Source of the DNA: Candidatus Gribaldobacteria bacterium
GTDB taxonomy: Bacteria > Patescibacteriota > Minisyncoccia > Minisyncoccales > CG1-02-41-26
Direction of reading: 5' to 3'
Assembly (NCBI GenBank): GCA_026396775.1
Contig: JAPLWD010000045.1
Location: forward strand, 1 to 13,353
Length of the DNA stretch: 13,353 bases
Position 1 is the stretch's first letter. Each line of letters starts with the position of its first letter. The notes below the pieces were generated by a model. It made no database searches, was not told the DNA's origin, and saw only the letters and a list, made by a program, of their open reading frames with translations. The translations under genes and the position numbers were made by a program. This document shows positions 5 to 13,353 of this stretch, piece by piece.

Positions 5-37
5 GTCAAAATTCCCGGCGTGTCAAAATTCCCGGCG
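5..37 (-). repeat. Two tandem copies of a 16-bp repeat, period 17
   Basis: The unit GTCAAAATTCCCGGCG (plus strand) occurs at 5-20 and again, identical, at 22-37. The first overlaps the region just past the stop of the pilin-type gene; the second covers its last five or so codons. It is more GC-rich and less codon-like than the upstream gene. It probably extends beyond or belongs to a dispersed repeat element that reaches further left (inference). Confidence 0.85.
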
Positions 38-2035
38 ACAAAGGGAACAGACCCGCTCTCTTCGCAAGAAGGAACTGTACTTATCAGCAAGCCCAGACTG
101 CGACCCAGGACTGTCATTTTCCCAAGCTAGTGGTATATCTATGGCTTCTATGGCACTGTCATCAGATGGATTACTTGAAAACGCCTTTTTCCAATTATTG
201 ATTATATCTTTAGTACCCTTAATTAAGTCTAAGAACGCATCTTTCCAATTAACTGTGTTATGTAAAATTCGTAAACCCGCAGCCAGAATTTTTTCCGAAG
301 TTCCGTTTTTAACGATAGGATTCTCAAATAAAACCACAGCACAATTACCTTCGATTTCTATTGACCTGATATTATTTTCAAAATTGATTTTTTTTGTTAC
401 CTCCTTGCCATCACTATCCAATTCTTTTACTTCTATATTTTGGTAATAGATATCTTCCGGGATAAAGCTAGGAATCCACCCCCTAGCTAAAACCGACTTA
501 TCCCCCTTATCTCCAGTAGTTACATCAGAGTCATAAACTATACAATAGCCAGTAAAATTTTTCTCAGTGCAAAGCTTAACCCTATTGCAATCAGCATAAT
601 TGGGAGATAACTCAAAAATCTGTAGAGAGGAGGGCTTTTCAACTTTACCAAACTGGCTATAAAGCCAAAATGGTTTAGAGCCTTCGCTCTTGCCGTAAAC
701 ATTAAATGATCTAGGGGTCTTAAAATCTAAACCGCTCACTATTTTTTTAGTTGGTTGTGACCCAGTCATCTCGCCTTTTTCCATACAGGTTGCGTCGCAA
801 ACCCAGTCATCGTGAGGGTGGTCTTTGCCTTGGAAAAATATCTTTAATTGGCCAGAGTAATTAGCATTTTCGTGCAGAATGGCTAGGTAGTCGTGTGAGT
901 CAATGGTTTCGGTGTCAAATTTATTTTTAATGGCAATAAAACGCGCGTCGTCGTTAAATTTAACGCTATCAGCTCCAAAATCCGGCACCGATGCCATAAA
1001 ATATTTTTCGTTCTTAACTCCTTTCTTCCAATCCTTATCGTCTTTAGCTGAATACAAGTAAACCCCAGGGCCATTGCCATGCAAGGCTAAAGAAAGGGGT
1101 GGGTGCTTTATTTCTTTAGTGTTACACCCAATAATGCTAATTTCTTTGTCATTATTATTAGCAGAACATTTAATATCTTTGCCAGGCGAAGGTATGGTTT
1201 TAAAAAACCCAAAGTATGGATCAACTAATACAGTCGCGGTCAAATCAATCACCTTAATCTCCCCAACCATTTTTGTCCCAATCCCCGAGGAATTATATAA
1301 ATATTCTTTTGGTTCGGATTTATCTGTAGACTCAAAATTAAGTTGATCATACAATACCACTTTAGTCCTTTGGCCATAATCACCCCAAAAACCAATCCCG
1401 CCTAATGGAAAACTTTTAAAATCCAATACGGCCTGATCATCGTATATAATCGTTACTTTATCAGAACCAGAAACTGCTTGCGTTGTGCCACTAATTAATT
1501 TAAAATCACCGAAGATTTTATTCATATCGGGGATGTCGTTGGTAACATAGTAGGCTTCGTTGAGTTTCACCATTGCTCCAATAGATATTTCACCAGCTAA
1601 AAACTTAGTATAATTATCGCCGGCCTTAAATAAAAATATGCCTGAGGCCACGGGTTTAGTTTCAATGTTCACAATATTGATTTTGGGGTCAATCACTTTA
1701 AAAACAATAAACGAGCTGAATAAAATTACCACCCCAATAGCCGAGTTCACAATCCGCGACCTGGCCATTGTCATTCGGCCTGTATCGCCAGCCGCTGTTA
1801 AATACAAAAAGCCTGCCCCAATTAGTGAAAGAAAAGCCACAACGCCTGCAGCAATCAAGGCCCAACCCACAAAGTATTTAATCATTTCGCCCAAAGGGCT
1901 GGCCTTGGTAATAGAAATATTAACCACATCCGGATAATCACCCTCAAGCCCAATTTGAGCTACAGCCACACCCGCTAAGCCCAAAAAAATCAAAATGGCA
2001 ATAAACCCAAAAACATTTTTTTTAAATAGTTGCAT
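23..2035 (-). CDS. VirB2/TrbC-like pilin-type membrane protein with large exported crystallin-like region
   Basis: 670 residues, starting at ATG 2035, five bases after the TAA of the transglycosylase gene; no Shine-Dalgarno site is visible. Residues about 8-27 are a signal peptide or first helix ending AVAQ. Two further hydrophobic helices (about 51-73 and 96-113) are joined by a short AAGDTGRMTMARSR loop. This hairpin is the layout of VirB2/TrbC-type T4SS pilins and the pilin-like proteins common in CPR genomes. Unlike a true pilin of about 100 residues, it continues for some 550 residues of beta-rich, presumably exported sequence. Motifs resembling beta/gamma-crystallin Greek keys occur there: GVYLYSAKD (324), YLAILHENANYSG (383), RVKLCTEKNFTGYC (485), and NNIRSIEIEGNCAVVLFENP (554). 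The C terminus (RRERVCSLCRREF) is encoded by repeat DNA and looks foreign. A likely role is a membrane-anchored surface protein of a secretion or attachment apparatus; this is inferred. Confidence 0.87.
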   Translation of the reverse strand: MQLFKKNVFGFIAILIFLGLAGVAVAQIGLEGDYPDVVNISITKASPLGEMIKYFVGWALIAAGVVAFLSLIGAGFLYLTAAGDTGRMTMARSRIVNSAIGVVILFSSFIVFKVIDPKINIVNIETKPVASGIFLFKAGDNYTKFLAGEISIGAMVKLNEAYYVTNDIPDMNKIFGDFKLISGTTQAVSGSDKVTIIYDDQAVLDFKSFPLGGIGFWGDYGQRTKVVLYDQLNFESTDKSEPKEYLYNSSGIGTKMVGEIKVIDLTATVLVDPYFGFFKTIPSPGKDIKCSANNNDKEISIIGCNTKEIKHPPLSLALHGNGPGVYLYSAKDDKDWKKGVKNEKYFMASVPDFGADSVKFNDDARFIAIKNKFDTETIDSHDYLAILHENANYSGQLKIFFQGKDHPHDDWVCDATCMEKGEMTGSQPTKKIVSGLDFKTPRSFNVYGKSEGSKPFWLYSQFGKVEKPSSLQIFELSPNYADCNRVKLCTEKNFTGYCIVYDSDVTTGDKGDKSVLARGWIPSFIPEDIYYQNIEVKELDSDGKEVTKKINFENNIRSIEIEGNCAVVLFENPIVKNGTSEKILAAGLRILHNTVNWKDAFLDLIKGTKDIINNWKKAFSSNPSDDSAIEAIDIPLAWENDSPGSQSGLADKYSSFLRRERVCSLCRREF
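38..54. repeat. Interrupted palindrome next to the tandem repeat
   Basis: GGGAACAGACCC at 43-54 has GGG and CCC arms around a six-base centre, preceded by ACAAA. Similar GGGxCxGxxCCC modules are known at the ends of REP/IS200-associated elements in several bacteria. Here it abuts the 16-bp tandem repeats and may be part of the same element. The identity is uncertain. Confidence 0.35.
311..1066 (-). other. Beta/gamma-crystallin-like region of the pilin-type protein
   Basis: Codons about 324-575 contain repeated motifs of the type hydrophobic-x-L-[HC]-[TE]-[EN]-x-N-[FY]-[ST]-G followed by strands and a R-S-I-x-[IV]-x-G turn, as in beta/gamma-crystallin Greek-key pairs. At least two such pairs can be drawn. 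The match is by eye; the classic Ca2+-binding N/D-N/D-x-x-S/T-S signature is not clearly present. Confidence 0.45.
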
Positions 2036-2040
2036 AGTTA

Positions 2041-3972
2041 TTATTTAAAAACATTTTTACAAGCAGGAACATCCTTTAAAGCTGTTTTTTGACACTCGGG
2101 TTTTTGCTCGTCCTCAAAACAACCAGTATCAATAGCCACTTGAAAACAGTCCATATAACCTATAACAGCTGTTGAGTAGGCCAGCCCAACCGCATCATTC
2201 AATCTTGCATCACTGCTACCAGGGCCTCGGGTATATCTTTTAGCGCCATTAGCTTCATCCCCAATAGACTTACACTCTTCAGTTAAGTAGGTCATCCCCC
2301 CAATCAAAGAAGGAATTGGCTCCCAAGGATTTGGATAAGGAGGCATAGTCTTATTCTCATTCATAGCGTTTACTACTCTCTGCTGAAGACTTAGCCAAGT
2401 TGTAGGTAGAATTTGCATTGGCCCCATCGCCCCCGCTCCTTTAGAAACCTTATAAATATCTAAATTTAAAATATCGTCTGTCAACTTATCTACAGTAATA
2501 CCCCGCAGTTGAGAAATGATTTCTTTTAAAGCCGTCATTTGCGATGTTTTCATCCCTGCTTTAAGAGGTAATACACCCATATAACTAGCCATTCTAGTTT
2601 CTCTAGCCATAATGCCTAGAACATACGCCGAAGATATTGTTGCCACTTTAGAAGCTCCTAGCGCCTTTTTAGCTTCGCCAATCATTTTATAAACATCGCC
2701 AGCTCGCATTAACATATCACCCGTTAAAGTGGGGAAGTTAATTTGAAAGTCAGCTAGGTTGGCTAGCTGGGTGCGAGGCACTCCAGCCTCTCGGCAACAC
2801 ACCCAATTGTTTTGGCTACCTCCGCACAGCCAAGCCAAACATTCTTCATCAGTAAACTTATCATTGCCCGTGCCTTTTTCGCAAAGACATTTGGCGCATT
2901 TATCGTCATCCAAAATCCCATTTTTACACTCTCCAAGACATTGATTGTAAATTACATAGTTAAGTTTAGCCAATGAAGAGGCTCCTTTTTCTTCCATCGC
3001 TTTTTTAATCAACCCTTGTGACAACAAGGTTGCAGGATTTTTTGACCAAAGTTCTGCATTCCCCAAGCAACCTCTGCACTCAGCACTAGTATCGTTTTCA
3101 TCCGTGCATTTATCTTGGCATTTTTCCGACCAGGCTCTAGGCCAATACATATTACTTTCTCTGGCTTCTTGGCACAAAGCTGGGCCCCACATTCCACCCA
3201 TTCCATCACTAGCTATTTTGCGATCCAATTCAGTCATCGCGCACGACCGCCGATCACCTGTGGCTGGAGTTAGCCAATTCCGCGCCAATTCAATTTGCCG
3301 TTTAATTTTTTCGGGCTGGGTAATTTTATCATCGGCTTGCTCTGCCCCACTAACACTTAATAAATCATAACCAATCGGTGTATTTTTTGCATACAACAAG
3401 TCATGCACTATTGTTTGGCGTTTTTTAAAATTATCCCTCAAAGTTATCAACTCTTTTATTTTCACTGTTAAATCAGCGCACGGCTGGCCGTTACATTTAA
3501 CCTGGCCACACAATGGCAAGTTCCAAGTTAATAAATTTAGAGTCATTAAATTAAAAACATCTAATTTTAAAGCTAAAGGTGGCCCCGGATTGTCAATTTC
3601 TCCAGTGGCAGGGTTAACTGGAGACTGGCAAGCCTTAAAATCGCAAACTTGAGCTGAATCGTTAGGCGAAGTTAAATCGGCTAACTGCGAAACTAAGTTG
3701 GCAATCGCTAAATCCAAATCAGTTTGAGCGGTGGTATACTCTTGATAAATAGCCTCCATTAAAATTTTAGTATTATCAAAAGCACTCCCAATTGGAATAA
3801 CTTCATCGCAAACAATGTCCCCCGACAAATCCGGAGCAACATCCGTAAAGCTTTGTGCTTGAGCCCTAGATTCAACAGCCGCCCGAGGTAAATAATAAGC
3901 CAAAGCCAACCCCAAAACCACCACAATACTAGCCAGCATTAAAGTAAAATTCCATTTTATTTTTATCTTCAT
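2041..3972 (-). CDS. Exported lytic transglycosylase (MltB/SLT-like) with Cys-rich N-terminal region
   Basis: 643 residues from ATG 3972; a TTG at 4008 in the same frame would add 12 residues and overlap the previous gene by 11 bases. I prefer the ATG because it gives a compact signal peptide (MKIKIKW, hydrophobic core about residues 9-27). Residues about 244-393 are Cys-rich (15 Cys, for example CQDKC, CRGC, CAKCLC, VCC). The C-terminal domain has hallmarks of soluble/membrane-bound lytic transglycosylases: GIMARETRMASYMG matches the MltB-type GI-x3-ET pattern with catalytic Glu at about residue 458 (codon 2599-2601), and GAMGPMQILPTTW at about 514-526 matches the conserved G-A-M-G-P-x-Q motif. 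Such enzymes cleave the MurNAc-GlcNAc bond of peptidoglycan, releasing 1,6-anhydro ends. In secretion and conjugation systems, VirB1-type members open the wall for assembly. The neighbouring pilin-like gene, five bases downstream, supports that role. The Cys-rich part is not typical of the family and probably serves for docking. The fold assignment is fairly firm, the partner role inferred. Confidence 0.87.
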   Translation of the reverse strand: MKIKIKWNFTLMLASIVVVLGLALAYYLPRAAVESRAQAQSFTDVAPDLSGDIVCDEVIPIGSAFDNTKILMEAIYQEYTTAQTDLDLAIANLVSQLADLTSPNDSAQVCDFKACQSPVNPATGEIDNPGPPLALKLDVFNLMTLNLLTWNLPLCGQVKCNGQPCADLTVKIKELITLRDNFKKRQTIVHDLLYAKNTPIGYDLLSVSGAEQADDKITQPEKIKRQIELARNWLTPATGDRRSCAMTELDRKIASDGMGGMWGPALCQEARESNMYWPRAWSEKCQDKCTDENDTSAECRGCLGNAELWSKNPATLLSQGLIKKAMEEKGASSLAKLNYVIYNQCLGECKNGILDDDKCAKCLCEKGTGNDKFTDEECLAWLCGGSQNNWVCCREAGVPRTQLANLADFQINFPTLTGDMLMRAGDVYKMIGEAKKALGASKVATISSAYVLGIMARETRMASYMGVLPLKAGMKTSQMTALKEIISQLRGITVDKLTDDILNLDIYKVSKGAGAMGPMQILPTTWLSLQQRVVNAMNENKTMPPYPNPWEPIPSLIGGMTYLTEECKSIGDEANGAKRYTRGPGSSDARLNDAVGLAYSTAVIGYMDCFQVAIDTGCFEDEQKPECQKTALKDVPACKNVFK

Positions 3973-3979
3973 CTTCCTT
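3973..3979 (-). promoter_or_regulatory. Shine-Dalgarno-like AAGGAAG before the transglycosylase gene
   Basis: AAGGAAG directly precedes the ATG at 3972, leaving only about 2 bases between AGGA and the start, which is shorter than usual. It is the best purine-rich site near this gene, but the tight spacing leaves some doubt about which start is used. Confidence 0.35.
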
Positions 3980-3997
3980 ATTGTAACTAATTTATTA

Positions 3998-5008
3998 TTA
4001 TTTACCAAGCAACGAGTTTTCCAATCTTTCGGCCATTGATTTTAAGGGTTCTCTCATAATATAGGTAACGTAGCAAAAAGGTTGAGTGATGGGGTCGGGT
4101 GTTAGAGGCACGCCCGTAACGCACACCGGTGCCCAACAAACCATTTCACAAGGCTTGTCAGGGTTACCATCTGGGCAGTTAGGATCTTTTTTCTTCTCAT
4201 ACAAACACAATTTACAAAAACTTTGGCCACAATTGCACTGTTGTTGAGCAAAATCAACGGCTGTACCCATTGCCCATAAAAGCTGGGTTTGTTGCTTGAT
4301 GCTATAAGCTTTTTTGTACACAGAATCAACCAACGGAAAAACAGTAGGAGCTTTTTTGAGGATATCCAAACCCAAGGGGCCAAGCTCCAAACGCGCCATA
4401 TTTTTTCGCTCTAAATCAATGTCAAATAAATATTTTCGCACCTGCGAAAAATGAGCCTCTATAAGTTTAAAGTGAGCACCAGCATCCGGGCAAACCGAAC
4501 CACCCTTCACTCCCACATCGGTAACCCCAGTTACCACGCTGTAACTGGTGGCCGGCTTAGTTTCACAGGTTGGCGCATCAAAACTAAAGCCACTTTCTTT
4601 TTTCATATCAGGAGCATCTTTAGATTTAACAGCGTCCCTTAATTGCTTACTTAAACCTAAAATGGTATCTCTTAAATCATAAGCAGCCTCAACCGCTTTT
4701 TTAGTATCTTGTTGTAAATCTTTGGGGCCATCAAAACCATTAAACTTTACGCCCTTTTTCAAAGAAAAACTAATATCGGGTTGAGCTAAAGCGGTAAAAG
4801 CTTGAATGCCAGTAATAATGGAAAAAGCTTTCATCACTTTGCCTAAGTTACTTTTAATATCGGTGAGTTGGGTTGAACAAACCTCAATCAATTTTTCCCG
4901 TTGAGCTGTTTGAGCTTCGTTTAACGCTCTTAACACAGTCTTCGTTGTCACCACAGGCTTGGTCTTTACAATAGCTACTCCATGTACTACTAATTTTATC
5001 GCATTCAT
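3998..5008 (-). CDS. Exported Cys-rich giant protein, C-terminal fragment (frame-broken)
   Basis: 336 residues as read from ATG 5008, but the first about 28 residues overlap the preceding gene and look like an out-of-frame shadow, so the real coding part probably starts near 4930 as a continuation of that gene. The genuine part begins with a helix (LNEAQTAQREKLIEVC), followed by a weakly hydrophobic segment (AFSIITGIQAFTALAQ) and helical stretches. It ends with a Cys-rich region of about twelve Cys (CNCGQSFCKLC, then CPDGN...CEMVCWAPVC...FC) and a short helix (SMAERLENSLLGK). The stop is TAA, 25 bases before the ATG chosen for the next gene. There is no signal peptide of its own, which fits a downstream piece of the protein that starts at 9030. 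The combined product would be about 1,680 residues, exported and disulfide-rich. Family unknown. Confidence 0.75.
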   Translation of the reverse strand: MNAIKLVVHGVAIVKTKPVVTTKTVLRALNEAQTAQREKLIEVCSTQLTDIKSNLGKVMKAFSIITGIQAFTALAQPDISFSLKKGVKFNGFDGPKDLQQDTKKAVEAAYDLRDTILGLSKQLRDAVKSKDAPDMKKESGFSFDAPTCETKPATSYSVVTGVTDVGVKGGSVCPDAGAHFKLIEAHFSQVRKYLFDIDLERKNMARLELGPLGLDILKKAPTVFPLVDSVYKKAYSIKQQTQLLWAMGTAVDFAQQQCNCGQSFCKLCLYEKKKDPNCPDGNPDKPCEMVCWAPVCVTGVPLTPDPITQPFCYVTYIMREPLKSMAERLENSLLGK

Positions 5009-7226
5009 TATTTAAAGCGCCCATTAAAATTCCAAACTGCCCACAAGACTTTTCTGTTTCTTTTTGGTTGGCCAAATCGCCCTCGCTAGTTAAGCTTGCA
5101 TAATCTGCTAAACAAGCGGCCTTAAAATCTTGCGGATTTTGATCTAAAACAACCTTCAAGCTATCACAAGCCGACCGCAAATCATTTTCACCAAAAACTA
5201 AACGGGTTAAATTAGCTGATTGAGTTCCAACTAATTTTTCGGGTTCCTGATAGGCATCGTGAAAAAAATCTTTGATACCCCCCATAGAGAATTCAAACCA
5301 TTGCCTAACTCTCTCTTGGGTTTGATTAATTTTAGTAAAAGATTTTTCAATGTACGACAACGGGTTTTCAGTCATAGAGCTAAAATACTCATCCACCGTT
5401 TTGGCTCCCGAGCCATCATCTTTAGCCATATCAATCATTGGCTCCAACCCTAAAACCAATCTTTTAACCGATGAAGTGGCCGGGCTAGTTAAAAAATATA
5501 AGGCATCTTCTAAAACAGAAGCTTTAGTAAAGAAATTATACAATTGATCAAAGTTTTTCTGGATTTTCTTTTCTTCAAAGCACTTAATTTGGGGTAAAAA
5601 TCCTAAGTCGTTTTCGTCGCATACATATTTCTTGCCTAAAAGCTTCTCTATTTTTTGCAAAACATCTATTTTATTAGTTATGCTATCTCCCACAAAAATA
5701 CCTTTCCACGCCTCAAGCGAAGCTTGGCTAACAGAACCACTGCTATTTAAACGATTATAGGCATCTTGAAGGTTGCTCCAAGCCTTGGTGGCATCTGGTA
5801 ATAATTTCTCATTGATTTCTCGCGACAATTCAATCATCCGTTTAACCTGCCAGGTATAAGTTTCAGCCACATCTAATTCAAAGTTAGGCCTTTCATCGGC
5901 GGTAGGCGAACCAGGGCTAGTTGTACTCCAAGTTTCTTGAATCTCTTTCAAACGGTTACCAATCTTAGTTAAATTACCAACAAAAGAATCTAAATTTTCT
6001 TGAATTTTATACGAAGCCAGAACGCCTCCGCTAGAACAAGCTGAATTACCTGCTTTGCAAGCATCTTTACATTGAGAGGTTGAACAAGAGTTTTTACTGG
6101 TGGTACAATTATCCGTACAATTCTGACGACAAGCATCTCTGGCTGAACCAGCAGTTCCGAATTCTTTGCAAGCATCTCGACAAGCCGTTCGATCTTTATA
6201 CTTAGTAAAGGCCGTACTTCCACAAAAAGTATTACACTTACCTAAGGCTCCAGTGGGGCATCTGCTCGAATCCCCCACAGTTTTAATAAAGGCATCTGTT
6301 TTACTTTCAACAACCGCCGAAGCCCCACTAATCTCAAACAAAATAGCCGAGCTAGTAGGTGATAAACATGGAGCAAGCGTGCAACCAGGATAAGCAAGAC
6401 CTTGAAACATTAAGTTTAAATTATCAACTGCTAATATTAAATTTTCTATTCTAGCCTCCCAATCAACCCCCATCAAATCAACCTGATAACCATTCTTTTT
6501 AGCGTTATTAATAGTGGTAATATTAACTAAACAAGAGTCTTTGGGAATGGGGTCACCCTTAGTAATAACTCGCCCATCATACCAAACATACTCTTGCCAA
6601 TATGCTGTACCAGAACATTTCTGCTCTTCTACAGTACAAGGATATTTAGCGCAATCCTTAATTTTAGTTTTACAACGACTCTCAAAATTATCTCTTAAAT
6701 TTTTATCGTTTGTGCTTAGTTTGCCAAGATCAGTCTTGATGTCGCCAATTAAGCCCAGGGCTGTTTTCCACTTTAAAACATCAGGATATTTCTGATCATC
6801 AAGGGTACCATTGAAAATTTTACTGATAGCCCCAATATATTGCCCCGCATCATTTGGGTCAGCATTAACATTTTCTATAAGCACTCCAGCTGTGCTTAAA
6901 TAATCTTTAAGTCGCAATAGTTTCGCTGAGGCTACTTGATAAATTTTAAACCAATTTTCAGTATCTCCATCCACTAATACTCTTGGGGCAACACGGCTGG
7001 GGATAGAACAAAAAACTTCATCTACAGCTGGGGTGTTTTGATAATCCAACGGAACCTTACTAACAGTAACTTGGCTTTCATAATCAGGGTCAAGTTCACC
7101 GGGATGCCGGTACAAAACTAAAGTTTTGCCTCCATTATTTAAAGATGCAATATCTATAACAGTTGGTGAGCCATCGATTAAATCTTTTATCAATATTTCT
7201 TTCTTCTTTATTTTCGAATAAACCAT
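4884..7226 (-). CDS. Exported Cys-rich giant protein, central fragment (frame-broken)
   Basis: 780 residues as read from ATG 7226, but this start is doubtful: it lies 92 bases inside the preceding gene, with a stop codon just before it and no visible ribosome binding site. Its first 9 residues (MVYSKIKKK) are probably not made. The genuine part, from about residue 10, is soluble and largely helical with no membrane segment. Residues 323-397 form a cluster of 12 Cys dominated by C-x3-C pairs (CNTFC, CRDAC, CRQNC, CKDAC). Long helical stretches with coiled-coil character follow (about 405-530 and 550-660). The C-terminal part again has Cys pairs (ECDKISSTWSSYC...CGDNEDC). The last about 13 residues (VKRSSNSSTGKID, then TGA) are low-quality and overlap the next frame, which offers a better continuation. 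I interpret it as the central about 760 residues of one exported protein. No known family is recognised. Confidence 0.8.
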   Translation of the reverse strand: MVYSKIKKKEILIKDLIDGSPTVIDIASLNNGGKTLVLYRHPGELDPDYESQVTVSKVPLDYQNTPAVDEVFCSIPSRVAPRVLVDGDTENWFKIYQVASAKLLRLKDYLSTAGVLIENVNADPNDAGQYIGAISKIFNGTLDDQKYPDVLKWKTALGLIGDIKTDLGKLSTNDKNLRDNFESRCKTKIKDCAKYPCTVEEQKCSGTAYWQEYVWYDGRVITKGDPIPKDSCLVNITTINNAKKNGYQVDLMGVDWEARIENLILAVDNLNLMFQGLAYPGCTLAPCLSPTSSAILFEISGASAVVESKTDAFIKTVGDSSRCPTGALGKCNTFCGSTAFTKYKDRTACRDACKEFGTAGSARDACRQNCTDNCTTSKNSCSTSQCKDACKAGNSACSSGGVLASYKIQENLDSFVGNLTKIGNRLKEIQETWSTTSPGSPTADERPNFELDVAETYTWQVKRMIELSREINEKLLPDATKAWSNLQDAYNRLNSSGSVSQASLEAWKGIFVGDSITNKIDVLQKIEKLLGKKYVCDENDLGFLPQIKCFEEKKIQKNFDQLYNFFTKASVLEDALYFLTSPATSSVKRLVLGLEPMIDMAKDDGSGAKTVDEYFSSMTENPLSYIEKSFTKINQTQERVRQWFEFSMGGIKDFFHDAYQEPEKLVGTQSANLTRLVFGENDLRSACDSLKVVLDQNPQDFKAACLADYASLTSEGDLANQKETEKSCGQFGILMGALNNECDKISSTWSSYCKDQACGDNEDCVKSVKRSSNSSTGKID
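4918..5008 (-). other. Apparent +1 frameshift junction 2 (giant exported protein)
   Basis: The central and C-terminal frames overlap by 125 bases. Within the overlap the upstream frame gives a plausible Cys-containing sequence (STWSSYCKDQACGDNEDC), while the downstream frame gives a low-quality one (VVHGVAIVKTKPVVTTKTV). Past about 4930 the reverse is true: the downstream frame reads LNEAQTAQREKLIEVCSTQL, the upstream one VKRSSNSSTGKID and stop. A one-base skip near 4918-4935 restores a single reading frame. Confidence 0.6.
6036..6260 (-). other. C-x3-C cysteine cluster in the giant exported protein
   Basis: Codons 323-397 of the central fragment encode 12 Cys in 75 residues, with four C-x3-C pairs embedded in Lys/Arg/Asp/Ala/Thr-rich sequence. 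C-x3-C pairs of this kind are compatible with disulfide-linked helical hairpins. This is a structural inference, not a family match. Confidence 0.6.
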
Positions 7227-9030
7227 TTACCCATCCAAAAAATCCTTCATTAGTTTCAGCTATAAAGTCTTGATTGGGCTTAAAAAGAGGATCACAAACT
7301 TGATTCCATCCGTCACGCACATCCCTCCCAGTACCTGAGCTTGGCAGGGGGCAAAAATAAGGGAACCTTCTAAATAAGTTTCCACATCTTTTCGCATCAG
7401 TTGACGGTCCTGTAAATATTTCAGGGAAAGAAAAAAGGTCTGTCAACTTAGGATTAGGATTTTGAATACAACTATAGCAACTGATACATCTGTCTCTTAA
7501 ATCCATAGACGGCACATCGGCTCCGCATTCTTGTTTTTGATATTGTCGTGAAGGCACGGTTAAAATGTTGGTGATAACATCATCAAAAATCGTATTCATA
7601 CTGGTTAGGGCTTTGAAGTAATTATTCATCATTTGGTTAAGAGCTTTTTTGTTGGCGTTATCTTTGGCAAACAAAAAGCTTAATTCAGGTGCCTCCATTA
7701 TTTTGCCCTTAATGTTGCCTCGCATATTTTGTTCAATTACATCAATCGTTGATATTGCCTCGGACTTTGCCACACTAAAACCCGCCAAACCACTAGCAAA
7801 ATCATCGATAATTTTCATCAACCCGCCCCAAGCCGCCACCGGCCCCCGATCTTCACCCTGAATAGCTGAACTAGCCAAAGGCCCCAAAGCGTCTGACCAT
7901 TTCAAGCCAATGTTGTCTAAAGACAAATATAGATTAGAGGCTTGTTTAATCAACCCCCAAACATTATTCACCAAAGTATCTACAGCTTTATAAAGGCCTT
8001 TCGCTGTGTCTACAGCGCTTTTAATTTTTTGAAAAATCTTAACTAATTTGTAAATTTTCTGTGCCCATAGCAAAGCCCCTCCGGGAACTACAGTTTTTAA
8101 AACATCGGCCATCGTAACGGTGTAAGCAATGGTGCCAAACTTTAAAAAACAAGCTGATTTACAGGTGCCCAAAAAGTTGCAAGTAGAAAATGGATCGGTG
8201 GCGTTATAAAGCAACTTAGCCTGAAAAACCGCTTGAGCCGCTTCTCTTTGCAATTGCTCTAAACTTAAACACGAGCGAGCTTTAGATAACCTCTCGGCTT
8301 GGGTTTTTGAGGTGGGCGTTGCGTTTGGATCGGTTTCAACCATTCCAAGCTCGCATTCACTTGGCAAAACAGGAGTTGGCACTTTAAACCGCCCAGTCTG
8401 GTCATCCAGTACGGCGGTTTGGAAATAATCTTTAGTTTTGCCATTTTTATCTGTTATTCGCCAGGTGTCTTGAAATTGGTTAAAAATATTTTCACATCTC
8501 TGGCATTTTCCATTTGCCTTTTTAAGACATTTGTCAGACTCTTTAATAATCGGACACATTGTTTTATTGACACCATTCTCAATAAAAGTACAGTTAGGAT
8601 TTGCATCAGCAGGCCAACCAAGGGCGTATTTTTTATCCTCACAACTAGCGCAAGCGCATATCCCTTCGTTGTTGTTCCTAGTATCTTTATCACCACTTTT
8701 GTTGCAAAATTTTGTACCTGTCTCGCAAGTAATGTTTTTGCAATCGCCATTGCTATTGCACTTATCCGCTCTGATACAGTTAGGATCAGTACAATCCTCT
8801 ATTTCTTCTTTATAAGGGCATGCTTTAAAAATTGTGCCAAAAAATAAACTACCATTATTATCATAAATGATACTCCCAGGAATCGGCAACATTTTAGTCA
8901 ACTTAGCAATATTTTCTTCAAGCCAACCCGCCTTAACCTGTTGAATCGGCATTAAAACCAAAATCAAAACCCCCAAGATCATCAATCCGGTTAATCCAAT
9001 TTTTATTTTTAATCTTGATATTTTCAACAT
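7135..9030 (-). CDS. Exported Cys-rich giant protein, N-terminal fragment (frame-broken)
   Basis: 631 residues as read. It starts at ATG 9030, three bases after the upstream TAG, with no obvious Shine-Dalgarno site. The N terminus is a textbook signal peptide: basic residues 1-10, hydrophobic core about 11-28, and a likely cleavage after VKA near residue 34. Residues 71-179 hold 15 Cys, including C-x5-C and CxC spacings. A long helical region follows (about 270-440), including IAYTVTMADVLKTVVPGGALLWAQ, which is only moderately hydrophobic. Another Cys group lies near the C terminus (CISCYSC, then CGNLF...YFCPLP). The final 21 residues (RNIDKRFNRW...) look unlike the rest and lie in the overlap with the next frame, whose reading there is a good continuation. 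I therefore read this as the first about 610 residues of a longer protein joined to the following two frames. The family is unknown. Confidence 0.85.
   Translation of the reverse strand: MLKISRLKIKIGLTGLMILGVLILVLMPIQQVKAGWLEENIAKLTKMLPIPGSIIYDNNGSLFFGTIFKACPYKEEIEDCTDPNCIRADKCNSNGDCKNITCETGTKFCNKSGDKDTRNNNEGICACASCEDKKYALGWPADANPNCTFIENGVNKTMCPIIKESDKCLKKANGKCQRCENIFNQFQDTWRITDKNGKTKDYFQTAVLDDQTGRFKVPTPVLPSECELGMVETDPNATPTSKTQAERLSKARSCLSLEQLQREAAQAVFQAKLLYNATDPFSTCNFLGTCKSACFLKFGTIAYTVTMADVLKTVVPGGALLWAQKIYKLVKIFQKIKSAVDTAKGLYKAVDTLVNNVWGLIKQASNLYLSLDNIGLKWSDALGPLASSAIQGEDRGPVAAWGGLMKIIDDFASGLAGFSVAKSEAISTIDVIEQNMRGNIKGKIMEAPELSFLFAKDNANKKALNQMMNNYFKALTSMNTIFDDVITNILTVPSRQYQKQECGADVPSMDLRDRCISCYSCIQNPNPKLTDLFSFPEIFTGPSTDAKRCGNLFRRFPYFCPLPSSGTGRDVRDGWNQVCDPLFKPNQDFIAETNEGFFGWVNGLFENKEERNIDKRFNRWLTNCYRYCIFK
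7190..7226 (-). other. Apparent +1 frameshift junction 1 (giant exported protein)
   Basis: The frame ending at 7135 and the frame starting at ATG 7226 overlap by 92 bases. The second frame has a TAA directly before its ATG and no signal peptide or ribosome binding site. Skipping one base in the A/G-rich tract (minus strand AAAGAAGAAAGAAA, about 7195-7208) joins ...GLFENKEE to EILIKDLIDGSPTV... without a break. Either the assembly or genome carries an indel in this low-complexity tract, or a +1 frameshift occurs there. Confidence 0.6.
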
Positions 9031-9033
9031 AAA

Positions 9034-12000
9034 CTACTTAGACAAAGGCAAACCAGTCAACGAGCTAACTGGCACAGCATTTTTGGCAATCATTTCAGCT
9101 AAAATAGATAGGTTGTCTACAAATTGATTAGTGATACAGTCGGTTACCGAAACGCAACATTTCTTTTCGCCCGTGGCTACTCCATTTACATAAACATCGC
9201 TACTGGCTCTTTTAATACAGCAAGCAAACTTAACACCACCAAAAGCATCCTTAACTTCCACGGGCTTACTTTTGTCGGGGCAAGTTTTAGTGTATTCTTC
9301 TCTAGCGTTAGCTAAGCGACACTGCCGACATTCATCTTCTTTACGGCCTGTTAAGCCTTTATAGCAACATTGCCCCTTATCTTTGATCTCTATTTCGCCT
9401 TTTTCAAACAAACAATTTTCTTTGGCCGGTTTCACTCGGCATTGAGGTTCACAAACCAAGGGCTGCCCTCCCGAACAACACTCCATCACCTTACTGCCAT
9501 CAGGCTGAACGGTTTCGCGATAAATTTCTTTTAAATTTGTAGTGTCACAAGCCGAATCAGTTACAACCTTACGACAAGTTCCCGAAGTGTTATCACCAAA
9601 ATTTTGACCCACTTTTTTAGTCCACAACTCCGAGATTTTATCCCACAGCCAATTAGGAGCTTCAACCAAAGCCTTATCAAACCCTTCCTGCACCTTACTT
9701 TGAAAAGCTGACACAGCCTTGTTAATTGGGTTTTCTATATAATTTTTATACCGCGTAGAGGCATTATAATACTGTTTGGCTGTGGCTTGTTGCCAAGATT
9801 TTGGAATTGTATTAAACAATAAATCCAAATACGGAGTTTTTAGCCAAGTATACCGGTTAGATAAAAGACCCATCACCGAATACTTCGGATCAGTTATTTT
9901 TTTTAGTAAATCGCTATCAAATAATTCACCCTCAAAATTGTCAGCTATTAAATTAAGCAGTGTTTTGCTGGCAAATAATTTCTGCCAATCTTTACCGCAC
10001 AACAACTCGGTTTTCGGGCAAACCAATGTTTTGTTGTCAACTATATAACTAACCAATTTCTTATTATTGGGTATATGCGACCCAATTGTACTACCTAAAA
10101 AGCTAGCTAAACTTTTAATGGCTTCGCCGGTACCTGTATCAGCATACAAATAAGCATCAGCTGTAAGTGCTTTCTCCCAAATTTGATAATCGGTGTCTTT
10201 AACCTGCCAAACCGCAATCACCTTTCCATCCCCGCCGGCTTTTTTATCAATTTCTTGCGCATCCTTTAGGGTTGGAGTTGCTGGTGTTTCAAGTTGTGCT
10301 TCGCCTTCTTTCTTTACATTCTGCGAAGTAATAATGGGCTCCAGCTCTTTACTGACATCACCCGCCCTAAAACGAGGGTCACTTTTTTTAGCCTTTGGAG
10401 TCCAATATGTAAAATTGATGGAAAAAATACCTAATTGATTTCTGGTGGCTAGCTCGGTTCCAATTTTACTTAAAGTGCTAGCAGGAGTATCACGATAAAT
10501 AAATCTAAAAAGCTGGTTTAAAATTTCTGGTAACTGTTCGGGCTTTGAATTTTTATTAATTAAATCAAATAAAATCCGAAATTCGGGGGGATAAATATAG
10601 TGTTCCATTGTTTGATCTAGCCCCATTAGTTGGGCGGGCGAATAATCCAAAGACAAGCAAGTAGAATAAGCGATCAATTCTTCTGGTTCTATATCCACAG
10701 CCTCAACATTCAAATCAGCTAAAGCCTTAAACACATCTGCAGTGGTTACTTCAGCCAGGCTTTCCACCGAATAAGGCAAAGCGTCTTTAGGTAGTTTTTT
10801 CAATTCTCCTGACTTTAAGGATTCAAAAGTGTACTTAGGATGCTGGTCTTTAAAATCTAACACTATTTTACCACAAACATCATTATGTAAAAATTCATAA
10901 GGTGTTCGACTTAAAAAGTTTTTAGTTGATCCCTGACCCTTTCCTCTTAACAAGCTGGCCTCTCCTGTCTTAAAGGGTTTGATTACTCCAAAAGGAATAT
11001 CGATTAGCACGTCATCAATGGTTTTATTCGGCGTAGTGAACATTGCCAAAACTGTTTTACCGGCCGCGTCAACATTACTGGGTATCCCAATTAAACTAGT
11101 ATAGGGCTCCATTTTACTCACATCAATTTTTCTTTCCTGCGCCACCAATTTGGCATCATTGCACCAGTCTGGCAGGCCAGCACAAATCCATTCGTAAGTG
11201 TTAATTTCTTCAACCTCATCTTTTGGCTTATTGCTGTAGTAAGCTTCAATGGCTGTTCTAATCATCAAATAGGCTCCATTGTGTTTTTCCATTAAATCAC
11301 AAGTTTGACAGTAAGGTTGCCAATCCTTGCCTAGCTGGGTTTTTGTAAAATCTGGCTTATCCCAATTAACGCAAGTTAAACCTTGTTGACCTATTTTTAC
11401 CCTAGCCTCCACAATACTACAACTTAAAGCCAGCATTTCAGCTGTGGTGTTGCCTAGTTGACGGTTAAAAGAGACTAGAGGGTTCTGGCAAGCGTAATAA
11501 TTAAAGTAGCAAGCGGCTTGTTTAATTTGATCTGCTGTAGTTTTAACCGTAAATTTTTCTTTGTCTATTACCGGGAAAAATCCAAAGCCTTGTTTTTGTA
11601 ACTCTTTAGCTCGCTGGGCCTTAGTTTTCTCTCTTGAATTTTGGATTATTTTAACAGCACCAGTTAGTTGAGTCGGCACCAATTTAATCGTTTGGCAATA
11701 TTGAGCTAAGGTTTTCTTTGCTGGATTGTCAACATCTATAGTAATGCCAAAATCTTGATCTAAAACCTCACCACAAACCATTTGCTTAATATTGCCTTTA
11801 GCAAACCTACTAATTAACCCACCAAAAACTAATTCTTGGATCGGACTGTTGATATATTCCTTAAAACTTTTACATCCTAATTTATCTTTAGTGCACTCAG
11901 CCTCTGGCTTATACTTCTTACAATCTGCTATGTCTTTGTCACAGTGAGTATCATATTGATCAATCAGGTCTTCGATTCGAGAGTTTAAAGTTTCAGCCAA

Positions 12001-12288
12001 ACTTTTACAAGGATAGGTGCCATCAGGATTTTTGTCGCAGGGGTAGACAGTATCCAAAGCTCCCATTGGAGTTTTATGCAAATTAGCATAAAGATCGCAA
12101 GCCTTCTCACCTATATTGGTACACCCTTGAGGATTTGAACCATTAGTATTCCTATAGGTTTTACCATCAACACATTGCGTCCAGGTATCATAACTTATTT
12201 CCAGCCCCTTCCAGCTGACCGCCTTCCCAGGCTCATCATCTTTCGTGTTGTCATCCCAAGTAATATTATCCCACGATAAAGGCTTCAT
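9034..12288 (-). CDS. Large Cys-rich protein of unknown family with C-terminal CC repeats
   Basis: A 1084-residue protein that I cannot assign to a family. It starts at ATG 12288, four bases after the upstream TAA; the only in-frame stop just upstream is a TGA at 12298-12300. The N terminus (MKPLSWDNITWDDNTKDDE) is polar and acidic and has no signal peptide or membrane helix, which is odd for a protein this rich in cysteine. Residues 40-170 have scattered Cys (about ten). A mostly helical middle follows, with Cys pairs such as CQTC and WICAGLPDWC. A Pro/Glu/Lys-rich linker (ETPATPTLKDAQ) lies near residue 650. The C terminus, residues about 905-1051, is a dense Cys block with four vicinal pairs (ECC, QCC, ACC, KCC) separated by CxxC-R units. 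The gene ends in TAG, three bases before the next ATG. Context points to an exported surface or secretion component. The missing signal peptide could mean it is the continuation of the upstream gene, or that it uses another export route. Confidence 0.88.
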   Translation of the reverse strand: MKPLSWDNITWDDNTKDDEPGKAVSWKGLEISYDTWTQCVDGKTYRNTNGSNPQGCTNIGEKACDLYANLHKTPMGALDTVYPCDKNPDGTYPCKSLAETLNSRIEDLIDQYDTHCDKDIADCKKYKPEAECTKDKLGCKSFKEYINSPIQELVFGGLISRFAKGNIKQMVCGEVLDQDFGITIDVDNPAKKTLAQYCQTIKLVPTQLTGAVKIIQNSREKTKAQRAKELQKQGFGFFPVIDKEKFTVKTTADQIKQAACYFNYYACQNPLVSFNRQLGNTTAEMLALSCSIVEARVKIGQQGLTCVNWDKPDFTKTQLGKDWQPYCQTCDLMEKHNGAYLMIRTAIEAYYSNKPKDEVEEINTYEWICAGLPDWCNDAKLVAQERKIDVSKMEPYTSLIGIPSNVDAAGKTVLAMFTTPNKTIDDVLIDIPFGVIKPFKTGEASLLRGKGQGSTKNFLSRTPYEFLHNDVCGKIVLDFKDQHPKYTFESLKSGELKKLPKDALPYSVESLAEVTTADVFKALADLNVEAVDIEPEELIAYSTCLSLDYSPAQLMGLDQTMEHYIYPPEFRILFDLINKNSKPEQLPEILNQLFRFIYRDTPASTLSKIGTELATRNQLGIFSINFTYWTPKAKKSDPRFRAGDVSKELEPIITSQNVKKEGEAQLETPATPTLKDAQEIDKKAGGDGKVIAVWQVKDTDYQIWEKALTADAYLYADTGTGEAIKSLASFLGSTIGSHIPNNKKLVSYIVDNKTLVCPKTELLCGKDWQKLFASKTLLNLIADNFEGELFDSDLLKKITDPKYSVMGLLSNRYTWLKTPYLDLLFNTIPKSWQQATAKQYYNASTRYKNYIENPINKAVSAFQSKVQEGFDKALVEAPNWLWDKISELWTKKVGQNFGDNTSGTCRKVVTDSACDTTNLKEIYRETVQPDGSKVMECCSGGQPLVCEPQCRVKPAKENCLFEKGEIEIKDKGQCCYKGLTGRKEDECRQCRLANAREEYTKTCPDKSKPVEVKDAFGGVKFACCIKRASSDVYVNGVATGEKKCCVSVTDCITNQFVDNLSILAEMIAKNAVPVSSLTGLPLSK
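9136..9576 (-). other. C-terminal vicinal-cysteine (CC) repeat block within the 1084-residue protein
   Basis: Codons about 905-1051 encode a block in which CC pairs recur (ECCSGG, QCCYKG, ACCIKR, KCCVSV). At least two units share the order CC, Gly-containing turn, C-x2-C-R, single C, then the next CC. The order and spacing look like a diverged tandem domain repeat, probably a small disulfide-stabilised fold. I cannot match it to a named domain. Confidence 0.6.
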
Positions 12289-12292
12289 AATT

Positions 12293-13353
12293 TTAATTCA
12301 CCGAGCTAGGCAAAATATCAGCCAATGTGCCCTCGGTTACAAACTTATGGAATTGAGTTTGCCAAGCCTGCATTTGGCTGATAAAAGGCCTCAAGGGAGT
12401 TAAGATGTTATCTTGCACATAAACTTCAGTATATTTAACGGCTGTATAAATAATAGTTTGCAAAAAAGCGGATAAAAGGCTACTAAAACCATTCACAGCC
12501 CCAGCAATAATTGTGCCCTTGTTAATCCCCTTAAGGTTAGCATCTTTAACAGTCACATAGGCACACTCTTTGCATTGGCCTGCTTTATTGGAACCACCAT
12601 CGTAGTCCCAGCAATACCCAGCCGACTGGCAAATTCGAGGCCGATTGCCTCCAGCTGCTTTACATACGCCCCAAGTCAACGAGAATAGCCCAGTCGCCTC
12701 GTCTCCCGTAACCTTTGCATCTCCCGTAAAGCTAACTAATTTAGTAATCTCCTCGGGGGTTAACTTCAAACATCTTAGTCCAATTCTAGCCAACTCCGTA
12801 TCAATTATTGGACTAGTCTTATTGCAAAGGTTTTCACGAGAACCATTCTCCATCAACGCCTCCCCTGTATTTAAAGTGTCGTTGCAATTAGCCAAATCGC
12901 GATCCGAAAAATACATCGGGTTGTCATTTTTATAATTCTCAACAATCTGATCTAACGACCCAGTCAATTTTCCACTTAAATATATTCCAACATCTTTGGC
13001 CGCATTTTTTTCCAAACCATCTAAATTGGTTAGCATCCCAGCGGTGCTAGAAGCCACAAACTTATCAATTTTGCCTAAAATTCTCATTACTACATCCAAG
13101 TACTGGGTTTCGCTAAGTTTTTGATTTAGTTTTTTCTGAATCAGCGGAAATTGTTTTACAAAACTTTGAGTTAAAATGTTGTGAGCGGTTACTCCCACCA
13201 AATTAATCGCCTCGGTATCTAACTTGACATTTAAGCCATCTTTAAAAATCCAATCCCGTAAGTCGCTATTTAAAAAGTTTTGTAAAGTGCTGGGCAAACG
13301 AGATTCAATAGTGCCCGACAACAAACCCGTAATTAAATTAGAAAAAAACTTAT
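12293..13353 (-). CDS. Helical Cys-containing protein of unknown family, 5' end outside window
   Basis: I do not recognise the family. The frame is open to the right edge of the window: codons upstream of a TTG near 13324 continue as ...KFFSNLITGLLSG..., so that TTG is not a convincing start and the true N terminus lies beyond the window. The visible 350 or so residues are mostly predicted helix, beginning with an amphipathic stretch. The middle holds about eleven Cys, with the densest run at CQSAGYCWDYDG...CKEC. A weakly hydrophobic, Gly/Ala-rich stretch (GTIIAGAVNGFSSLLSAFLQ) lies near the C terminus; it could be membrane-associated, but it is not a clear transmembrane helix. The gene stops with TAA only four bases before the ATG of the next gene, so the two are co-transcribed. 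The spaced Cys suggest an exported, disulfide-bonded protein (inference). It may be the N-terminal part of a protein continued in the downstream gene, because the next frame is offset by +1. Confidence 0.75.
   Translation of the reverse strand, partial: KFFSNLITGLLSGTIESRLPSTLQNFLNSDLRDWIFKDGLNVKLDTEAINLVGVTAHNILTQSFVKQFPLIQKKLNQKLSETQYLDVVMRILGKIDKFVASSTAGMLTNLDGLEKNAAKDVGIYLSGKLTGSLDQIVENYKNDNPMYFSDRDLANCNDTLNTGEALMENGSRENLCNKTSPIIDTELARIGLRCLKLTPEEITKLVSFTGDAKVTGDEATGLFSLTWGVCKAAGGNRPRICQSAGYCWDYDGGSNKAGQCKECAYVTVKDANLKGINKGTIIAGAVNGFSSLLSAFLQTIIYTAVKYTEVYVQDNILTPLRPFISQMQAWQTQFHKFVTEGTLADILPSSVN
12298..12302 (-). promoter_or_regulatory. Possible ribosome binding site (GGTGA) for the 1084-residue gene
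   Basis: On the minus strand GGTGA lies 9 bases before the ATG at 12288, inside the last codons of the upstream gene. The spacing is suitable, and it is one of the few Shine-Dalgarno-like sites in the window. It supports independent or coupled initiation at this ATG. The match is short and could be chance. Confidence 0.4.

Follow-up and report, generated by a model that had tools for sequence, protein, structure and literature searches.

The window analysed here, the entire 13,353-base contig C42 of a metagenome-assembled genome (MAG; 749,637 bases, 126 contigs, 88% complete), carries on its minus strand what alignment indicates to be four genes, A, B, C, and D. With moderate confidence, we read A-B-C-D as the exported, outward-facing cassette of the chromosomal type IV secretion system (T4SS) of a Paceibacteria bacterium, most likely its host-contact surface. 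The genes appear as seven long co-directional open reading frames (ORFs), arranged head to tail between positions 23 and 13351. Spacing is 4 bases between the two A pieces, 3 between A and B, and 5 between C and D, and the pieces of B overlap each other (7135–7226 and 4884–5008). An earlier annotation made from the letters (the sequence-only reading) had described five co-directional genes with almost no spacing; the direction and the tight spacing hold over 23–13351, whereas the count does not.

The gene count comes from comparison with locus L003 of a same-genus relative (contig JAQTPV010000002.1, Candidatus Paceibacterota bacterium), the sole relative returned by a gene-A query of public genome contigs. 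The counterpart region there consists of four ORFs: A of 2075 aa (60 cysteines), B of 1761 aa (80), C of 631 aa (27), and D of 720 aa (10). According to tblastn, window ORFs 12293–13351 and 9034–12288 together match the single 2075-aa ORF, and ORFs 7135–9030, 4884–7226, and 3998–5008 the single 1761-aa ORF. The first A piece (12293..13351, minus strand, as for all features below; 352 codons, running off the contig at its 5' end) matches residues 619–979 of L003 A, and the second (9034..12288; 1084 aa, 40 cysteines, with a Cys-dense domain at its end) matches residues 1004–2075. At the junction (12288..12297), the first piece ends in a stop and the ATG of the second follows after 4 bases; ~24 L003 codons are missing here. 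Contig C64 of the MAG stops within the first A residues, and its end carries the start of A with the pilin anchor. As for B, alignment to L003 gives a first piece with a signal-peptide-like hydrophobic N terminus (7135..9030; 631 aa, 29 cysteines), a middle piece (4884..7226; 780 aa as listed, 29 cysteines) reached by a frame change within 7135–7237 with practically no codons lost, and a last piece (3998..5008; 336 aa as listed, 12 cysteines) reached by a frame change near 4920–4975 with ~43 codons missing. A further stretch of L003 B (residues ~1293–1367) has no window counterpart.

Assembly error is the likeliest cause of these breaks, because A and B are unbroken in L003, the TrsD gene on C64 is broken likewise (15 codons missing), and the MAG contains runs of N, among others in VirB4 of C64. 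On the same grounds (L003 unbroken, TrsD broken likewise), we ranked a natural or programmed split of the two genes below assembly error. Genome G014 (L029, 6909–11474) also has A as two ORFs, the second with a signal-like N terminus of its own, and this may be a genuine split of the gene. An apparent giant B of >4,687 aa in G016 was rejected as an artefact, with 4,395 of its letters being X.

The neighbourhood of the cluster points to a T4SS. L003 has the order dnaA, rnpA, yidC, jag, PrgI-like, TrsD-like, VirB4, a small membrane protein, A, B, C, and D, and a TrbL/VirB6-like gene and KsgA follow beyond D on the same contig (locus L016). Pfam confirms dnaA, rnpA, yidC, jag, and KsgA among these flanking genes, and VirB4 of L003 matches P-loop_TraG (E 2.5e-24); the TrsD-like gene, with no match in Pfam, is named by its position and from PMC12102498. 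In the window genome, VirB4 and its partners lie on contig C64, which ends in A, and the TrbL-like counterpart on contig C102 (55% identical to that of L016, with no TrbL match itself). The window cluster is thus the distal half of a single T4SS locus. The sequence-only reading had linked it to type IV secretion in bacteria of the candidate phyla radiation, and these flanking genes, together with a D pilin that passes its Pfam cut-off, bear that link out. A–D evolve far faster than the base of the system: identity to L003 is 85% for VirB4, 91–92% for TrsD, and 71% for the PrgI-like gene (whose window-genome copy has no Pfam match at E <= 0.01), versus 43–63% for A–D.

Gene order is conserved as well. 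A-B-C-D is kept in 8 of the 11 relatives, which is every one whose contig spans the cassette; the contigs of G008, G014, and G022 end before it is complete. Because many of these A–D proteins went into the profiles, the scores are partly circular, which does not apply to the gene order. The neighbourhood check suggested earlier therefore found the order preserved. Of 60 genomes, 12 contain gene A, the window's own among them, and every one of the 12 belongs to the 24 genomes of its family; VirB4 is present in 59 of 60. Across 383 class-wide genomes, the A C-terminal profile matches 2 (own included), and the D ectodomain 8, three of which are outside the family. Among 20 further VirB4-downstream loci from the same 60 genomes, several of them cut by contig ends, 14 encode an anchored protein of the A/D type. 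Within the order, an exported cassette with such anchors therefore often follows VirB4, and part of the order lacks it; of the loci compared, those of the window's family have the largest.

Gene D (23..2035; 670 aa as listed, 10 cysteines) combines an anchor with a predicted ectodomain. Its T4SS pilin anchor, two hydrophobic helices at residues 47–115 (1691..1897), reaches 27.5 bits for PF18895 at a cut-off of 26.6; D of L003 scores 20.8 bits, below that cut-off. Tested against the conjugative pilus hairpin 8dfu, the D model aligns with probability 0.82 and root-mean-square deviation 2.5 over 68 columns, at a weak E of 3.2. A structure search with the model of L003 D (residues 319–715) points to a Greek-key crystallin fold in two tandem domains. 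The matching part of the window protein is residues ~323–641 (113..1069), and the contig end truncates its final portion. Residues 131–318 were barely covered by the structure search, and no fold is named for them. Pfam finds no crystallin family in 25 of the 26 D members and one weak Crystall_3 match (E 0.035), and no PDB crystallin was found for D by sequence search. A conserved CASAIAIYPIK-like tail closes 25 of the 26 D sequences, all but the window copy; the natural C terminus of the latter is missing, and the stop at 23 is therefore unlikely to be the natural end. The adjoining contig end (1..112) departs from every D relative, contains a short near-repeat, and is probably an assembly edge; no second occurrence of the tail (1–120) is present among the available contigs of the MAG. 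In L027 (G007), L030 (G021), and L021 (G010), D is repeated in tandem as two or three divergent copies; one of the G007 copies has an SLT-like tail and another a DUF5675 tail. A phage origin is unsupported: none of the four proteins has a PHROGs match at E <= 0.01, and no viral structure matches the D model at E <= 0.001.

Gene C (2041..3972; listed from TTG 4008, with ATG 3972 fitting relatives better) has one hydrophobic N-terminal segment, a Cys-rich domain, and then an SLT-like stretch at residues 522–598 of the 655-aa ORF (2215..2445), indicated by a Pfam match below the cut-off and by alignment motifs. The ARETR and GAMGPMQILPTTW motifs are located within and just before this stretch. 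Relatives match SLT_2 at E 0.017–0.082, below the Pfam cut-off, and C of L003 has no SLT match in Pfam. A model of the SLT part built from 2 sequences has a predicted local distance difference test (pLDDT) score of 40.7, too poor for a structure search.

All seven ORFs contain cysteines (8 to 40 residues, 1.5–4.6%), as had been noticed from the letters. In cross-genus alignments, where a column counts as kept if present in at least 80% of rows, kept columns amount to 27/34 for cysteine and 47/702 for other residues in A, 25/47 and 170/1315 in B, 20/21 and 35/305 in C, and 6/6 and 80/506 in D. Because Cys columns are kept far more than other columns, the cysteines of A–D are not due to chance. 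The earlier claim of three proteins with signal or membrane N termini also stands, hydrophobic N termini being confined, among the window ORFs, to the first B piece, C, and D. Outside the T4SS locus, on contig C81 of the same genome (L037, 9749–12565), a further Cys-rich gene of 780+ aa with 57 cysteines has a 154-aa pilin-like gene as its neighbour.

According to the mechanism we propose, VirB4, PrgI/VirB3-like, TrsD-like, and TrbL/VirB6-like proteins would build the membrane base, and VirB2-like two-helix anchors would hold A and D in the membrane or pack them into a filament. The large ectodomains, giant and Cys-rich on A and a beta/gamma-crystallin pair on D, would be displayed outside, with B as a giant exported Cys-rich partner, and the putative peptidoglycan-cutting domain of C would open a path through the wall. 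Together, A–D most likely serve as the host-contact surface of the T4SS, replacing the adhesins of Gram-positive conjugation systems, and the crystallin-bearing membrane pilin D may help the cell grip its host. Anchors, outside ectodomains, a wall-cutting part, and a slow-changing base fit such a surface on a secretion machine. The extracellular, attachment-related role suggested earlier is compatible with these features, and exposure is probably right.

Several points weigh against this reading. Locus, order, pilin anchor, crystallin fold (predicted on a relative), Cys conservation, and fast divergence are results of calculation; export, assembly, filament formation, secretion, adhesion, and wall cutting are what we infer from them. 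The crystallin model was built on L003 D and transferred to the window by alignment, and its crystallin region is of middling quality, with 13 of 41 ten-residue blocks of 311–720 at pLDDT >= 80 and two inserts having pLDDT <50. The usual beta/gamma-crystallin calcium motif, [ND][ND]xx[ST]S, is present in only 3 of the 26 D sequences; lens crystallins are not known to carry it either. Three domain matches fall below their Pfam cut-offs, namely PF12666 for PrgI-like in L003 (21.5 bits, cut-off 27), PF04610 (TrbL) in L016 and L017 (18.1 and 19.8 bits, cut-off 25.9), and SLT for C (E 0.047, 13.7 bits, cut-off 21.3). Six of the 20 VirB4-downstream loci (G012, G041, G024, G045, G031, and G026) have no anchored protein, which shows that the T4SS can do without the cassette at that place; D-like stretches occur elsewhere on the contig of G012. 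Finally, VKOR is found in 0/24 family genomes (G000–G023) and 5/60 overall, and DsbB in 0/24 and 1/60.

The last result bears on the term 'disulfide-rich', which was an assumption of the sequence-only reading and against which the scarcity of disulfide-machinery genes counts. The DsbA-like Thioredoxin_4 is above its cut-off in 2/24 family genomes and 13/60 overall, and at E <= 0.001 in 7/24 and 20/60; the search covered VKOR, DsbB, and Thioredoxin_4, with CcdA and other oxidoreductases left out. The cysteines may bind metal, or their oxidation may come from the surroundings or from an unrecognised enzyme. The family genomes encode exported proteins with up to 117 cysteines despite the absence of VKOR and DsbB in this search.

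Among the alternatives, a purely structural cassette, i.e. a conduit and wall scaffold that takes the T4SS through the cell's own envelope and binds no host, is possible though rather unlikely. It would account for the wall-active domains on C and some D copies, a rigid scaffold would suit the Cys conservation, and monoderm T4SSs are described as having no outer-membrane core (PMC12102498). However, ectodomains of 1.5–2.1 thousand residues seem far beyond the need of a thin monoderm wall, and outside contacts better suit an ectodomain size that varies strongly across the order and a divergence much faster than that of the base. A bolder version of the host-contact reading, which we put forward only tentatively, is a T4SS filament whose pilin-type subunits carry host-binding ectodomains, crystallin pairs in the case of D and the giant Cys-rich one in that of A; the fibre or sheath would be a lineage-specific adhesin, and the interchangeable wall-cutting domains (SLT, 3D, DUF5675) may act on the host envelope and not on the cell's own.

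An import apparatus for DNA or nutrients, with A–D as capture proteins, seems improbable. PMC12102498 places the VirB4 clade of Patescibacteria with the MPF-FATA class, which also serves archaeal conjugation and DNA import, and finds no relaxase in most such loci, but sequence family searches recognise no DNA-binding or nutrient-binding domain in A–D, and wall-cutting modules are more typical of delivery. We give equally little credence to A and B being secreted effectors that act on the host, with only C and D belonging to the machine. Both are giant, Cys-rich, lineage-restricted, and fast-evolving; A, however, has a membrane pilin anchor and B a Sec-like N terminus, and sequence family searches recognise no toxin or enzyme family in either. 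None of the three outcomes named beforehand as refuting the sequence-only reading occurred, since the order is conserved, A and B are intact in relatives, and, as far as sequence goes, no well-known unrelated family explains either of them. The A profile has no match at E <= 1e-5 among 8000 candidates scored, and PDB sequence searches with the A and D profiles and with C give no credible relative. Least probable of all is decay of A and B in the window organism, for which the three window breaks and the splits of A in G014 and of B in G013 and G007 can be cited, since conservation of the Cys columns holds to either side of each break, relatives have open frames for A and B, the B of G013 and of G007 contains X letters from N, and TrsD, the N runs, and the unbroken same-genus copy point to assembly.

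Type IV systems of this kind are already in print, and the labels 'unassigned' and 'undescribed' given to the cluster as a whole must be dropped. Chromosomal T4SSs with VirB2-like pilins are known from Patescibacteria (PMC12102498, PMC10633639; review PMC12857230), and the published loci, including SEML1_0006-0019 of Southlakia epibionticum (PMC10633639), share VirB4, PrgI/VirB3-like, TrsD-like, and TrbL/VirB6-like genes, PF18895 pilins, an SLT-like gene, and a position near dnaA. The accessible text of PMC12102498 and PMC10633639, however, makes no mention of giant Cys-rich A and B or of the D crystallin ectodomain. Like Patescibacteria VirB2-like pilin arrays, the present loci encode a hairpin near virB4, in several copies side by side in the case of D in G007, G010, and G021, but here it anchors ~550 residues (D) or ~1,500 to 2,100 (A) and not a short pilin. 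Bacterial beta/gamma-crystallins (RbmC of Vibrio, Protein S, Clostridium and Flavobacterium domains) share the predicted fold, and the tandem pair is as in vertebrate lens crystallins; D differs in being joined to a T4SS pilin anchor, with a Pfam family match in 1/26, a weak one, and the calcium motif mostly absent. PrgB-type adhesins and extended VirB6 proteins likewise tie large surface or hydrophilic parts to a T4SS (PMC12102498, PMC12857230), whereas A and D stand on pilin hairpins next to a separate TrbL/VirB6-like gene, a distinction drawn from descriptions.

Within the literature searched, the crystallin-bearing pilin with giant Cys-conserved partners is apparently undescribed at this locus: the accessible portions of PMC12102498, PMC12857230, PMC10633639, PMC10936435, and PMC10903470 describe no giant Cys-rich or crystallin-bearing proteins there, which is no proof of absence, as preprints, most subscription papers, and supplementary tables lay outside the search. 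One Patescibacterium cannot grow epibiotically without T4SS genes (PMC10633639), yet a 2025 survey reports no PrgB in Patescibacteria and no adhesin for their T4SSs (PMC12102498). In Paceibacterales parasitising archaea, T4SS pilin genes rank among the secreted genes with the highest expression (PMC10936435), and the window organism presumably lives on a host too. RbmC, an adhesin of Vibrio, has a crystallin domain that binds mucin (PMC10903470), which is a precedent and not a test. The crystallin-fused pilin and its giant Cys-conserved partners are concrete, expressible candidates for a contact surface in Paceibacteria, some of which are archaeal parasites (PMC10936435). They also pose a puzzle, because exported proteins so rich in Cys are encoded by a family in whose genomes our searches found neither VKOR nor DsbB.

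As for VirB4 itself, the genes of L063 and L064 (G007 and G018) are interrupted near residue 265–275, close to the P-loop, by an intein with a LAGLIDADG domain, and VirB4 of G044 and G058 has the same split signature (signature only).

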